32,342 bases of DNA from a virus: the IMG/VR virus record IMGVR_UViG_3300031839_002061, positions 1-32,342 of that record. One strand, given 5' to 3'. The position numbers and the translations under genes were made by a program. The notes under the pieces are model-generated. The model saw only the letters and a program-made list of their open reading frames with translations. It had not been told where the DNA came from and searched no databases. Below, piece after piece: positions 7,024 to 19,827 of this stretch (positions within the stretch are counted from its first letter, which is position 1; each line of letters opens with the position of its first letter).

Positions 7024-8428
7024 CCACCATCACATCGGAAACCACCCGACCCTGACGCTGAGCTTCGCCCCCGAGCGGATCGAGAGGTGGCCGCTGGCCA
7101 AGCTCCAGCCCTACGCGAAGAACGCGAAGGTGCACGGGCCCGACCAGGTCGCGAAGATCGCCGCCAGCATGGCCGAGTTCGGCTGGACCGTGCCCTGTCT
7201 CGTCGGCGAAGACGGCGAGTTGATCGCGGGCCACGGACGGGTGCTGGCCGCGACGCAGCTGGGGCTGACCGAAGCGCCGGTGATCGTGCTCGGGCACCTG
7301 ACCGAGGCGCAGCGGCGTGCCTACCGCATCGCCGACAACCGGCTGGCTGAAAGCCCGTGGGACGAGGCGCTGCTCTCGGCCGAGCTGCAGGACCTGCTGG
7401 CCGACGACTACGACCTGTCGCTCGTGGGCTTCTCCGATGGCGAGCTCGACAAGCTCCTGGCTTTCGATCCGGACGGGGGCGGTGAAGAAGAGGGTGGCAC
7501 CGGGGGCTCGGTACCTCCGGTGACCATCCCCGAACCGCCGCGCAATCCGGCCTCGCGCACCGGCGATCTGTGGATCCTCGGCGATCACCGTCTGCTCTGC
7601 GGTGACAGCACCAGCGCTGCTGACGTGCGCCGCCTGATGAACGGCGAGCGCGCGATCCTGTTCGCGACCGACCCGCCGTATCTGGTGGACTATGACGGTT
7701 CGAACCATCCGACGCGCAACAAGGATTGGTCTGCCTCCTATGGCACCACCTGGGACGACTCCTCGCAGGGTGCCGAGCTCTACGACGGGTTCATCGCTGC
7801 GGCCGTGGCCGAGGCCATTGCTGACAATGCCGCGTGGTATTGCTGGCACGCCTCGCGCCGCCAGGCGATGCTGGAGGCCTGCTGGGAGAAGGCCGGGGCC
7901 TTCGTCCATCAGCAGATCATCGGGGTGAAGGACCGCGGGGTTCTGACCCGCTCGCATTACCTCTGGAAACACGAGCCCTGTTTCATGGGCTGGCGCCGCC
8001 CGAACCGCCCGCCGAAGGTGGCCGAAGAAACTCTGCCGTCGACATGGGCGCTGCCCAGCTTCGCTAAGGACGAGCGGCCCGACCACCCCACGCCGAAACC
8101 GCTGGACGCGTTCGGGATCCCGATGCGCCAACATGTGGCGCGGGGCGGCCTCTGCTACGAGCCCTTCTCGGGCTCGGGTTCGCAGATCATGGCGGGCGAA
8201 GCCAACGGCCGCCGCGTCTTCGCGATGGAGATCAGCCCGGCCTACGTCGATGTCGCCGTGGAACGCTGGCAGGCCGAGACCGGCCGCGACGCGATCCTAG
8301 ACGGCGACGGTCGGACCTTCGCGCAGGTGAGAACCGAGCGGCTGGGCGACGATGCCGAGGCCCGGGCCGATACGCCGGACCCGGACGCCGTCCCCGAACC
8401 CGCGCGAAAGCGCCAGACCGCCGCGTGA
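6980..8428 (+). CDS. DNA methyltransferase with N-terminal ParB/Srx-like domain (beta-class, DPPY)
   Basis: Methylates adenine or N4-cytosine in phage DNA. Numbering from the alternative ATG at 6935 (497 aa): a ParB/sulfiredoxin-like domain at about 50-170 with GHGR (99-102), then a methyltransferase with DPPY (246-249, motif IV), HPTPKP (384-389) and FSGSGSQ (411-417, the AdoMet-binding motif I). The order motif IV before motif I marks the beta class. The fusion of ParB-like and methyltransferase domains is common in phages and prophages. The start is uncertain: ATG 6935 and ATG 6980 both lie inside a long inverted repeat with no clear ribosome site, and family-like sequence begins only near LTLSFAPERIE (about 7050). 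A non-ATG start there is possible. The next gene begins 1 base after the stop. Confidence 0.88.
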   Translation: MESSAASGVRNPASIHHHIGNHPTLTLSFAPERIERWPLAKLQPYAKNAKVHGPDQVAKIAASMAEFGWTVPCLVGEDGELIAGHGRVLAATQLGLTEAPVIVLGHLTEAQRRAYRIADNRLAESPWDEALLSAELQDLLADDYDLSLVGFSDGELDKLLAFDPDGGGEEEGGTGGSVPPVTIPEPPRNPASRTGDLWILGDHRLLCGDSTSAADVRRLMNGERAILFATDPPYLVDYDGSNHPTRNKDWSASYGTTWDDSSQGAELYDGFIAAAVAEAIADNAAWYCWHASRRQAMLEACWEKAGAFVHQQIIGVKDRGVLTRSHYLWKHEPCFMGWRRPNRPPKVAEETLPSTWALPSFAKDERPDHPTPKPLDAFGIPMRQHVARGGLCYEPFSGSGSQIMAGEANGRRVFAMEISPAYVDVAVERWQAETGRDAILDGDGRTFAQVRTERLGDDAEARADTPDPDAVPEPARKRQTAA

Positions 8429-8429
8429 C

Positions 8430-9527
8430 ATGCATGACCTGGCTTTACCTTCCTCCGGACGCGCTTCCGGGGCCGGAGACGCATGCCTGTTCGGCCTCTC
8501 CCTCTGCTCTGGCGCGGGCGGGCTCGACCTCGGGCTTGCCATCGCCATCCCTGGATATCGTGCTGTGGGCCATGTCGAACGGGAAACCTTCGCCGCAGCC
8601 ACTCTCGTGGCGCGGATGGAAGACGCGTCCCTGGATCAGGCTGTTGTCTGGGACGATGTTGCCACCTTCGACGGCCGACCGTGGCGCGGCGCGGTGGACA
8701 TCGTCACTGCGGGCTATCCGTGCCAGCCGTTCTCCGTCGCGGGCAAACGCCGGGGTGCCGATGACCCGCGCCACCTCTGGCCCCATGTCGCCCGCATCAT
8801 CGACGAGGTCGAGCCACCCTTCGTCTTCCTCGAGAATGTCGCCCATCATCTCCGCCTCGGCTTCCCCGAAGTCGCCAGCGGACTGGTCGGCATGGGCTAC
8901 CGCCTTGCGGCAGGCCTCTTCACGGCGGCGGAAGTCGGCGCGCCTCACAAGCGGGAACGCCTGTTCATCCTCGCCATCCGCGAGGGGGACGAGCTGGCCG
9001 ACCCCGCGCGCCTGCTCTGGGACCCGGTCGAGTGGCGGGAACCGGACGGAAATGATGCGGCTATGGCCGACGCCGAGGGCCAGCGCCAACGAGAACCGGC
9101 AGACGAAACCGACACCATCACAGGAAGCCGGTCAGCACGGGATGAACCTTGCGACCACGGCCGCAATGTGGCCGACACCTATGGCCAACGACGGATGCAA
9201 GCCAAGTGCGGGCAATCGCCGGTCGGCCGATCTGACCCATTCGGCGGGGATGTGGATGACGCCAACGGCTCGGGACCACAAGGATGGCGCGACGACACTG
9301 GCGAACACGCCGGTGAACGGCCTGCTTGGCCGCCAGGTCCTGGTGACGCCGATGGCTGGGAGCGATACCTCCGATGCGCGCCGGACCTTGAACCCGCTGT
9401 TCGTCGAGGCGCTGATGGGCTGGCCCACCGGGTGGACCGGCTTCGCCTCTGTGGTAACGGCGTGGTCCCCCTGGTTGCAGCGCATGCGCTGCGAACTTTG
9501 GCGGCTGAACTGCTGGCCGATGGATGA
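8430..9527 (+). CDS. DNA (cytosine-5-)-methyltransferase
   Basis: A 365-residue C5-cytosine methyltransferase. Motifs: LCSGAGGLDLG (25-35, motif I), GYPCQPFS with catalytic C98 (motif IV), FLENV with E135 (motif VI), KRERLF (174-179, motif VIII-like), a variable target-recognition region (~205-310) with repeated ADA/ADT elements, and CGNGVVPLVAAHALRTLA (341-358, motifs IX-X). ATG 8430 just after the preceding stop is chosen; longer in-frame starts lie in the upstream gene. Codon use changes in the last third: by rough hand count, G/C at third positions drops from about 80% to about 60% after base 9060, while the +1 frame there stays near 80%. All catalytic motifs are intact, so activity is likely. 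Probable role: protection from restriction. Confidence 0.88.
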   Translation: MHDLALPSSGRASGAGDACLFGLSLCSGAGGLDLGLAIAIPGYRAVGHVERETFAAATLVARMEDASLDQAVVWDDVATFDGRPWRGAVDIVTAGYPCQPFSVAGKRRGADDPRHLWPHVARIIDEVEPPFVFLENVAHHLRLGFPEVASGLVGMGYRLAAGLFTAAEVGAPHKRERLFILAIREGDELADPARLLWDPVEWREPDGNDAAMADAEGQRQREPADETDTITGSRSARDEPCDHGRNVADTYGQRRMQAKCGQSPVGRSDPFGGDVDDANGSGPQGWRDDTGEHAGERPAWPPGPGDADGWERYLRCAPDLEPAVRRGADGLAHRVDRLRLCGNGVVPLVAAHALRTLAAELLADG

Positions 9528-17641: not shown

Positions 17642-17952
17642 TGTCTGCCGTCGCCGTGGCGCTCGACGCCCTCTTCGCGGACGGCAATATCGCCCGCGAC
17701 GCGGTCTACATCGCCGACGGCGGCGCGCCCGTCCTGGTGCGTGCCGTCGCCCGGCGTGCCGATGCGATCAGCGATTTCGGCGACGCGCGCCTATGGTCCG
17801 AAACCACCCGCATCGATCTGCGCGTCGCAGAGGTGGCAAACCCGCGTCCCGGCGACCGGATCGAGATCGACGGCGACGCCTTCCTCATCCAGGGCGAGCC
17901 CGCCCGCGATCGCGAGCGGCTCGTCTGGACCGTCGATCTGAGGCCCGCGTGA
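17641..17952 (+). CDS. putative head-tail joining protein
   Basis: A 103-residue beta-rich protein right after the major capsid gene, where lambda encodes gpFI/gpFII. It contains ARDAVYIADGGAPVLVRAVA, ETTRIDLRVAEVANPRPGDR and RDRERLVWTVDLRP, the look of small head-completion proteins. The start at 17641 overlaps the capsid stop by one base; longer in-frame versions are shadows of the capsid gene. The end overlaps the next start (GTGA). Role assigned mainly by position. Confidence 0.65.
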   Translation: MSAVAVALDALFADGNIARDAVYIADGGAPVLVRAVARRADAISDFGDARLWSETTRIDLRVAEVANPRPGDRIEIDGDAFLIQGEPARDRERLVWTVDLRPA

Positions 17953-18578
17953 AACTGAAGCTCGACATCGATCCCGACATCGTCGCGATGATGGCGGCCG
18001 AGGTCGCGGCGGGCGAACGCGCGGTGACGGCCGCCATGCGCGAGGCCGGGACCGGGTTGAAGTCGGCTTGGCGATTGCAGATCACCGGCGCAGGGCTCGG
18101 CACACGGCTCGCCAATTCGATCCGGAGCCAGAACTTCCCGAGGTCGGGCGAGAGCCTGGACGCGGCGGCGCTGGTCTGGTCGAAGGCGCCGGTGATCGTC
18201 GGCGCGCATGACACCGGTCCGCTGATCCGTTCGAAAAACGGGTTCTGGCTGGCGATCCCGCTGCCCGCCGCAGGCAAGTCCCTGCGCGGCGGCCGGATCA
18301 CGCCCGGCGAATGGGAACGGCGACGCGGGTTGCGGCTACGGTTCGTCTATCGCCGCACGGGCCCGAGCCTGTTGGTGGCGGAGAGCCGGCTGAACACGAA
18401 GGGTCAGGCGGTCGTGTCGCGCTCCAAGACCGGGCGCGGCAAGGTCACAGCGCCGATCTTCCTGCTGGTGCCGCAGGTCAAGCTGCCGAAGCGGCTGGAC
18501 CTCGCGCGGGACGCAGACCGGGCGTTGGATGGTGTGCCAGGGCTGATCGTGGCGAACTGGGTAGAGGAGCGCCTATGA
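17949..18578 (+). CDS. DUF6441-like minor tail / head-tail connector protein
   Basis: A 209-residue protein starting at a GTG that overlaps the previous stop (GTGA). It has helical N-terminal sequence (EVAAGERAVTAAMREAGTGL), then HDTGPLIRSKNGFWLAIPLP, and a basic middle (WERRRGLRLRFVYRR). I recall such proteins as DUF6441 in alphaproteobacterial prophages; the position matches lambda gpZ or a tail-completion protein. Its TGA lies within ATGA (18575-18578), the signature of a coupled next gene, but what follows is the reversed cargo gene. Its 3' end overlaps that gene by 6 bases tail-to-tail. Confidence 0.68.
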   Translation: MKLKLDIDPDIVAMMAAEVAAGERAVTAAMREAGTGLKSAWRLQITGAGLGTRLANSIRSQNFPRSGESLDAAALVWSKAPVIVGAHDTGPLIRSKNGFWLAIPLPAAGKSLRGGRITPGEWERRRGLRLRFVYRRTGPSLLVAESRLNTKGQAVVSRSKTGRGKVTAPIFLLVPQVKLPKRLDLARDADRALDGVPGLIVANWVEERL

Positions 18579-19319
18579 CTTCGGGCCGGCCACCAATTTC
18601 TTGTTCTTCCACAAGCGGAAGCTGGTACTTCCCGGCACGCTTGAACGCGCGTGTTTAAACGCAACTCGCGCGGTTTCTCCCTCCAGCAGATGGTAGACGA
18701 GGAATGTCTGCACGAACTGCGAAGCGATAGCCCCGTGCACACTATGGAACGGACCGATGAACCTTTCGCACGACGCGTGCGCCGACGCGGCCCCCCCGAA
18801 TGCCTTGTAATCAGTCTCGCAACACAGGCTAACGAAGGTCTTTGGCGAAACACCCGCGACATCAAAGGTGCTCATGAACGCATCGGTTTCTATCCAGCCG
18901 CCATTCGCAAATTTGATGCTCGCCTCGCTGCCGTGACCAATAAGAATGACATGCGAATAGGCCGCGTGAGCGCGACCCCACAGAACATCAATCTCGCTTA
19001 GTGAACGAACCTTATAGGCGTGAATGAAGTCGTCAGAAACGAGCAATCTGCAGAACTGCAGTATCGATTTCCCCAGGGGATCGAGAAGCGTCATTTCGGT
19101 CTCGAGGTCGCCGAGGTTCAGCAATAGGATCCCGATATTGCGATGGCAGAGGCTGCTTGCGATTAACTCGGTCGTTCCACCACCCACATCGACCCTGATA
19201 CTTCTGGCTTCGATTGCCAGAACCTCTTTCTCAACGAAAGAAGAGGGCGACTGAAGAGCAGCCTTCAATTTCGAAACGGGCACAAAAACTCGCTCACCAA
19301 CTTGTAGATTATTGGCCAT
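18573..19319 (-). CDS. CHAT/caspase-like protease, reversed cargo gene
   Basis: A 248-residue protein on the opposite strand to the head and tail genes. Residues ~1-60 look like a small beta domain (VGERVFVPVSKLK, RSIRVDVGGGTTELIASSL). Residues ~60-225 follow the CHAT/caspase pattern: a strand NIGILLLNLGD, then HVILIGHGS with H129, FVSLCCETDYKAFGGA with C166/C167 (C167 aligns best with the catalytic Cys), FIGPFHSVHGAIASQFVQTF, and LLEGETARVAFKHARSS. A His-Gly plus Cys dyad in this order and spacing marks the cysteine-protease fold. G+C is near 50% on the lines counted against about 70% beside it. GAGG precedes the ATG on its strand. No partner gene is adjacent. Likely role: accessory defence or host-effect protease; function is inferred, not shown. 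Confidence 0.65.
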   Translation of the reverse strand: MANNLQVGERVFVPVSKLKAALQSPSSFVEKEVLAIEARSIRVDVGGGTTELIASSLCHRNIGILLLNLGDLETEMTLLDPLGKSILQFCRLLVSDDFIHAYKVRSLSEIDVLWGRAHAAYSHVILIGHGSEASIKFANGGWIETDAFMSTFDVAGVSPKTFVSLCCETDYKAFGGAASAHASCERFIGPFHSVHGAIASQFVQTFLVYHLLEGETARVAFKHARSSVPGSTSFRLWKNKKLVAGPKS

Positions 19320-19407
19320 TTCGAACCTCGGCTCTCAAGACAAGCCTTACTCTCGGGACGAGAACGTTCGACGGCAAGCCCAAGATGAGAACCGGAGCAA
19401 AATTGAG
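19320..19407. promoter_or_regulatory. short gap upstream of the reversed cargo gene
   Basis: The promoter of the cargo gene should lie here, read leftwards. The stretch is A+T-richer than the tail genes and contains GAACGTTC, an 8-bp palindrome. No convincing -35/-10 pair is seen on the minus strand. The rightward tail gene has GGAG at 19394-19397. Confidence 0.3.
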
Positions 19408-19827
19408 ATGCCCACCCCACGGGAAACCATCCTCGCCGCGCTGCATGCGCTGCTCTCGGCGCTGCCCGCCACGGTCCTGCGCGGCGAGGTGCTGCCCGAG
19501 CGCGTGCCAGCCGGGGGGCTGCTGATCCTGCGCGATGGCGAGCCGGGCGAGCCGGAGGTGACGCTGTCGCCCCCGCGCTACCACTACCAGCACCGCGCCG
19601 AGATCGAGGCCGTCGTCCAGGGTGCCGCCCGTGACGCGGCCTTCGACACGCTGACCGCCAGCATCGGCGCGGCGCTCGCCGCCGACCGGACGATGGGCGG
19701 GCTCTGCGACTGGGTGGAGGCCGAAGCCCCGCGCCCTGTGGACCTGCCGGTCGAGGGCGCCGCCAGCCTGAAGGCCGCCGTGATCCCGGTGGTCCTGCAC
19801 TACACAACGGCCGACCCGCTGGCCTGA
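19408..19827 (+). CDS. putative tail terminator / tail completion protein (gpU-like)
   Basis: A 139-residue protein. The pattern is that of tail terminators: an N-terminal helix (RETILAALHALLSALPATVL), beta strands (GLLILRDGEPGEPEVTLS, HYQHRAEIEAVVQG), a second helix (RDAAFDTLTASIGAALAADR), and a final strand pair ending VIPVVLHYTTADPLA. It precedes the tail tube gene as in lambda (gpU before gpV). ATG 19408 is chosen; an earlier in-frame ATG at 19312 would overlap the cargo gene's start and add 32 non-family residues. The gap to the tube gene is 24 bases. Confidence 0.7.
   Translation: MPTPRETILAALHALLSALPATVLRGEVLPERVPAGGLLILRDGEPGEPEVTLSPPRYHYQHRAEIEAVVQGAARDAAFDTLTASIGAALAADRTMGGLCDWVEAEAPRPVDLPVEGAASLKAAVIPVVLHYTTADPLA

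Follow-up and report, generated by a model that had tools for sequence, protein, structure and literature searches.

A phage cargo gene in a variable late-operon hotspot encodes a predicted CHAT/caspase-like protease, a candidate single-gene anti-phage system

The window analyzed here is the whole of one IMG/VR record, 32,342 bp, and its genes include those for terminase, portal, a ClpP-type head maturation protease, and the major head protein, together with a DUF6441-type minor tail gene (phrog_6367) and genes for the tail terminator, a tail tube-like protein, the tape measure, and tail proteins; a DNA methyltransferase gene lies at 8352-9527, upstream of the terminase genes. Between two late genes of this tailed phage, and antisense to the late operon, is a gene for a predicted CHAT/caspase-like protease (the CHAT gene). 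The features of the locus are as follows.

17949..18578, plus strand: left anchor of the hotspot, a DUF6441-type / gp10-like minor tail gene (phrog_6367, E 6.9e-81, function unknown)
18573..19319, minus strand: CHAT/caspase-like protease gene, 248 aa, ATG start, single-gene cargo
18579..19407, no strand assigned: cargo hotspot interval, occupied in relatives by 0.5-2.8 kb of variable low-G+C DNA
19370..19387, minus strand: conserved 18-bp block upstream of the CHAT gene, an inferred candidate promoter of the cargo gene
19408..19827, plus strand: right anchor, the tail terminator gene (phrog_4204, E 2.9e-43)

The stop codon of the CHAT gene meets the end of the upstream gene; on the other side, the tail-terminator ATG at 19408 lies 88 bp from the start of the CHAT gene. 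With a G+C content of 0.54, or 0.54-0.58 when measured in centred 500-bp windows, the insert stands apart from its flanks (0.67-0.73) and from the late operon (0.69-0.70). The gene is a maintained one, and not a chance open reading frame, because i) the putative catalytic His and Cys are invariant in 19 homologues; and ii) the closest homologues have dN/dS of about 0.03-0.07 relative to one another, indicating strong purifying selection. The values 0.035 and 0.073 come from two homologue pairs with unsaturated dS; for pairs that include the window gene, dN/dS is near 0.03 and dS is saturated. CHAT-bearing phages keep the 18-bp block upstream of the gene; loci with different cargo lack it there. 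It may serve as the promoter of the CHAT gene, a role that is inferred; a sigma-70-type promoter was sought and none was found. As a common recombination site of the hotspot the block can be ruled out, since loci have it there only when they carry the CHAT gene.

Scans of the CHAT protein against Pfam, PHROGs, and PADLOC returned no family at E values up to 10; the Pfam CHAT profile PF12770 matched neither the protein (E up to 10) nor any of 13 homologues, and a single-sequence search of PDB sequences gave nothing significant. We regard PF12770 as a tool for detection and not as a definition of the structure, and CHAT membership rests here on the fold and the catalytic dyad. An AlphaFold2 model built from 13 homologues (pLDDT 90.4, pTM 0.90) has as its top Foldseek match in the PDB the SAVED-CHAT protein 8tl0 (E 7e-8), followed by separase (E 5e-5), Csx29 (E 7e-5), and caspase-7 (E 3e-4), and a Foldseek probability of 1.00 to SAVED-CHAT, separase, Csx29, and caspases satisfies what is expected of a caspase-hemoglobinase fold. 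A family profile run against 177,635 PDB sequences likewise ranked the same SAVED-CHAT protein first (E 0.15) and GPI transamidase second (E 0.54), although these ranks are not significant alone. The parts of the protein map to the window as follows.

18576..19133, minus strand: CHAT protease domain, residues 63-248 (model and Foldseek)
18819..18821, minus strand: Cys167 codon (C-C-E-T), putative nucleophile, invariant in 19 homologues
18933..18935, minus strand: His129 codon (GHG), putative catalytic His, invariant in 19 homologues
19134..19319, minus strand: SH3/Tudor-like small beta-barrel, residues 1-62 (model), putative sensing or substrate-binding domain

H129 is the His of GHGS, and of the two Cys residues in SLCCET the second is C167; in an alignment of the 19 homologues, extending down to 34% identity, 24 positions do not vary, G128-H129-G130 and C167 among them. 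In clan CD proteases the His belongs to an H-G motif and the Cys comes after the next core strand, a criterion that H129 and C167 together meet. Because the model (pLDDT 90) matches SAVED-CHAT, separase, Csx29, and caspases, we consider a CHAT/caspase fold with an intact dyad to be well supported, bearing in mind that the fold is predicted by a model and that catalysis is inferred. No SAVED or TPR sensor domain is present; only the 62-residue barrel precedes the CHAT domain, with weak Foldseek matches (E 0.03-0.2) to the myosin N-terminal SH3 domain, the PHF20 Tudor domain, and other barrels. An earlier, sequence-only reading of the window fares well against these results. Its coordinates (the open reading frame is exactly 18573-19319 on the minus strand), its low G+C relative to the flanks, and its choice of H129 and C167 all held, as did its description of a short protein without a repeat domain and a gene without an adjacent partner at the window locus, and its assignment to the CHAT/caspase fold. 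Homologues keep the His and Cys, as it would have them do, in 19 of 19 cases. Its placement of a trigger or substrate site in the N-terminal ~60 residues is plausible, as these are predicted to form a separate SH3/Tudor-like barrel.

The CHAT gene occupies an interval that is variable among related phages. Loci were collected through relatives of the tail terminator, 80 being kept of at least 584, and a few of these are duplicate views of one record; the relative of the left anchor is annotated as DUF6441 family, and in Rhodobacter phage RcKai as a minor tail protein. Of the 80 loci with both anchors, 77 have 0.5-2.8 kb between the DUF6441-type gene and the terminator; the distance is close to zero, leaving the hotspot empty, in the other 3 (L051, RcKai, and Nostoc phage Nsp-JY21); at a control junction, that between the terminator and tube genes, the gap is about 24 bp (21-28 bp in 81/90 loci). 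The longest cargo open reading frames fall into 53 sequence clusters in 72 loci, mostly unrelated and many without a recognized domain; mean cargo G+C is 0.564 vs 0.707 in the flanks, and in 45 of the 72 loci the longest open reading frame runs antisense to the late operon. Cargo frames were called mechanically, and some on the plus strand may be spurious. The phages concerned are alphaproteobacterial siphophages, mainly of Rhodobacterales. The interval is thus a high-turnover accessory-gene hotspot between two conserved phage genes.

The CHAT gene fills this hotspot in the window, in L002, L006, and L009 (Paracoccus), and in L103 (the chromosome of G102). Cargo elsewhere includes Schlafen/AlbA_2 (L053), RES (L091), YaaC (L095), T5orf172 (L018), NYN nuclease (L026), PLD (L030), and RelA/SpoT domains, as well as PADLOC candidate families such as PDC-M09A (L029) and PDC-S33 (L082), but also genes of metabolic or transport-related appearance (sulfate permease, chromate transporter, SBP56, cation efflux). 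The hotspot therefore carries defense-type genes but is not limited to them, and we claim no enrichment over background; because part of the cargo looks metabolic or transport-related, position in the hotspot does not by itself prove a role in defense.

Two further observations concern the hotspot. At L072:1599-2654 (minus strand) the cargo is MuF-like followed by a CdiA-CT RNase A toxin domain, with MuF relatives in L031, L038, L048, and L092 (Pfam Phage_Mu_F is matched in L031 and L072); the five related open reading frames are unequal in length, suggesting variable C-termini. MuF polymorphic toxins are already known (PMC5576092), and the MuF-like proteins seen here are mostly antisense cargo in a late-operon hotspot. 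Separately, the late genes of Nostoc phage Nsp-JY21 (L107) and Synechococcus phage Sc-Yong805-1 are about 68% identical to those of the window, and the true host of these phages, recorded from cyanobacteria, may possibly be an alphaproteobacterium.

Homologues of the CHAT protein were gathered from viral contigs and from phage, plasmid, and genome collections. A first genome scan with the single CHAT sequence gave no match, and an alignment was required to find the genome homologues. The 19 homologues span Pseudomonadota, Actinomycetota, and Acidobacteriota, and members are rare, occurring in 4 of 397 genomes from the Paracoccus strain's family and, in other groups of 200-397 genomes, in 1-3 each; these counts take in the genomes used as group centres. 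We found no report of the CHAT family or of the hotspot in the open-access literature searched.

Several homologues adjoin known anti-phage systems. Specifically, i) in an actinomycete (L118) the homologue faces a Gabija-like pair of genes, GajA-like and UvrD helicase (L118:9795-13513), the GajA-like protein matching GajA structures at E 1.7e-7; ii) in L104 the open reading frame of the homologue overlaps the end of an hsdR gene; and iii) on a mobilizable Pseudohalocynthiibacter plasmid (L004) the homologue directly follows an operon for ubiquitin-like, DUF7665, JAB, and ThiF/E1-like proteins (L004:4980-7812), a closely similar E1-like gene being found at the same place in Primorskyibacter (L013). 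The DUF7665 protein of this operon could be an E2, and at this locus ubiquitin-like conjugation might be functionally linked to a caspase-like protease. Other homologues adjoin a phage integrase (L010), lie near terminase genes (L097), or follow a gene for a pentapeptide protein (L011), and Gordonia phages CarolAnn, Blino, and Lilas carry homologues, with Fic near Lilas gp33. No defense gene immediately adjoins the homologue in L010, L012, L119, or L120; no cas genes were seen among annotated homologue neighbors, the window neighbors being phage late genes; and no conserved partner or antitoxin gene was found beside the homologues.

The CarolAnn homologue is gp35. Published RNA-seq data show expression of CarolAnn genes 34-36 during lysogeny (PMC6426606). 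The CarolAnn lysogen also resists, without needing gp43/44, infection by Woes, Monty, Huffy, Vendetta, UmaThurman, Utz, Blueberry, and Wizard; the authors state that a further system, beyond the gp43/44 they identified, must be present (PMC6426606). The sections of PMC6426606 consulted report no test of gp35. We suggest gp35 as a possible, untested candidate for this unexplained defense; genes 36, 38, and 39 are equally untested and could serve as well.

We propose that the CHAT gene is prophage cargo and represents a new family of CHAT-based proteases, each acting as a single-gene defense against phages, a reading to which we assign a probability of about 0.68 and in which protective activity is inferred. 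It rests on the cargo position in the hotspot together with CHAT relatives that adjoin known anti-phage systems: the gene, its conserved dyad, the hotspot, and neighborhoods with defense systems are shown, and the fold is predicted by a model. The sequence-only reading had likewise inferred a lysogenic anti-phage protease, and it is supported by homologues beside Gabija, HsdR, and the ubiquitin-like operon, protection remaining an inference, and by the published lysogenic expression of the CarolAnn 34-36 block; its own ground for refutation, that the gene might be a conserved tail gene in all relatives, was not borne out, as only a handful of relatives carry the gene and nearly all others hold different genes at this junction. 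Against the defense reading it must be said that there is no phage-resistance assay for any member of the family and that the evidence is one of association only. The metabolic part of the cargo, the homologue loci that lack an immediately adjacent defense gene, the absence of a recognized sigma-70-type promoter, and the rival candidate genes in CarolAnn also weigh against it.

In mechanistic terms, what we consider most likely is an abortive-type defense: the gene would be expressed in the lysogen from its own promoter, antisense to a silent late operon, and the protease would be held inactive there; a component of a superinfecting phage, or an infection-induced ligand, would engage the CHAT protein, probably through the barrel, and switch on the His129/Cys167 protease, which would then cleave a host or phage protein and so abort the infection. 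Expression in the window lysogen, protease activity, trigger, substrate, and abortive outcome are all inferred.

Four other explanations deserve consideration. The first is counter-defense, in which the protease would disable a host defense in lytic growth and the homologues would regulate the neighboring Gabija, HsdR, and ubiquitin-like systems rather than act as effectors. Proteases can inactivate defense proteins, and defense systems do adjoin the homologues in L104, L118, and L004; however, the CHAT gene is antisense to the late operon and has its own conserved upstream block, CarolAnn genes 34-36 are expressed in lysogeny and not only in lytic growth, and some homologues occur without any such defense system, so that we consider this explanation unlikely. 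The second is host-fitness or lysogeny-control cargo, the protease cleaving a host regulator or the prophage repressor for reasons unrelated to superinfection. Some hotspot cargo is metabolic, and repressor cleavage by proteolysis is a known route of induction, but the family is spread over unrelated phages, a plasmid, and chromosomes of three phyla, which makes a protease specific for one repressor improbable; this explanation too we judge unlikely. The third is a toxin component, of toxin-antitoxin or polymorphic toxin type, that only stabilizes the prophage. The hotspot also holds RES, RelA/SpoT, and MuF-RNase cargo of toxin type, and caspase-clan proteases can be lethal, but no conserved partner or antitoxin gene adjoins the homologues, and we regard this as very unlikely. 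Finally, a virion assembly or maturation protease, that is, an ordinary late gene, is suggested only by location among head and tail genes and is all but excluded by the opposite strand and different G+C, by the lack of the gene in nearly all relatives (some with an empty junction), and by the head maturation protease, of ClpP type, that the phage already has.

If the anti-phage reading is correct, a self-contained protein of about 250 aa would stand apart from the CHAT proteases of bacterial immunity, most of which work with CRISPR or gasdermin partners, and such a compact protein would offer a minimal system for asking how caspase-like immunity is triggered. The family occurs in three phyla and has a homologue in a sequenced, tractable phage (CarolAnn, in G. 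terrae 3612), where gp35 can be tested as the possible source of a prophage defense that has been published but not explained; the many cargo clusters of the hotspot without a recognizable family are in turn candidate new defense genes. A bolder reading, which we offer only as a possibility and as a joint claim, is that these proteins are undescribed caspase-like, single-protein, phage-triggered death switches across three phyla; that the SH3/Tudor-like barrel senses infection directly, with no nucleotide second messenger; that some plasmids and chromosomes couple the switch to ubiquitin-like conjugation; and that it explains the gp43/44-independent defense of CarolAnn.

Both one-gene CHAT defense (Borvo) and phage defense hotspots (P2/P4) were known beforehand; the CHAT protein matched no known family. 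Borvo, the single-gene CHAT defense system of Millman et al. 2022 (listed in PMC10952713), resembles the window system in consisting of one gene with a CHAT protease domain, although an anti-phage role is reported for Borvo only; no PADLOC-DB family matched the CHAT protein at E up to 10, inclusion of a Borvo model being unconfirmed, and the N-terminal part of the window protein is a predicted SH3-like barrel, a point on which we have not compared the architecture of Borvo. The CRISPR type III-linked SAVED-CHAT protein (8tl0) has the solved structure closest in fold, a similarity that extends to the GHG and Cys regions and to the C-terminal helix, but the window protein lacks the SAVED sensor domain and is about half as long, and no CRISPR locus is seen beside the window gene or its relatives. 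Csx29 (TPR-CHAT, of the type III-E Craspase) shares the CHAT fold, but the window system is without TPR repeats, Cas7-11, and Csx30. Bacterial gasdermin-activating proteases are caspase-clan members of prokaryotic immunity, the clan to which the window protein is assigned; unlike theirs, its neighborhood and those of its homologues contain no recognized gasdermin-like gene. The CarolAnn defense region carries the gp35 homologue in a block transcribed in the lysogen, whereas the defense identified in PMC6426606 is gp43/44. Lastly, the P2/P4 hotspots (PMC9122126) are likewise small, high-turnover loci between two conserved phage genes that hold both defense genes and genes of unknown function; the hotspot described here differs in belonging to alphaproteobacterial siphophages and in lying inside the head-tail late operon.
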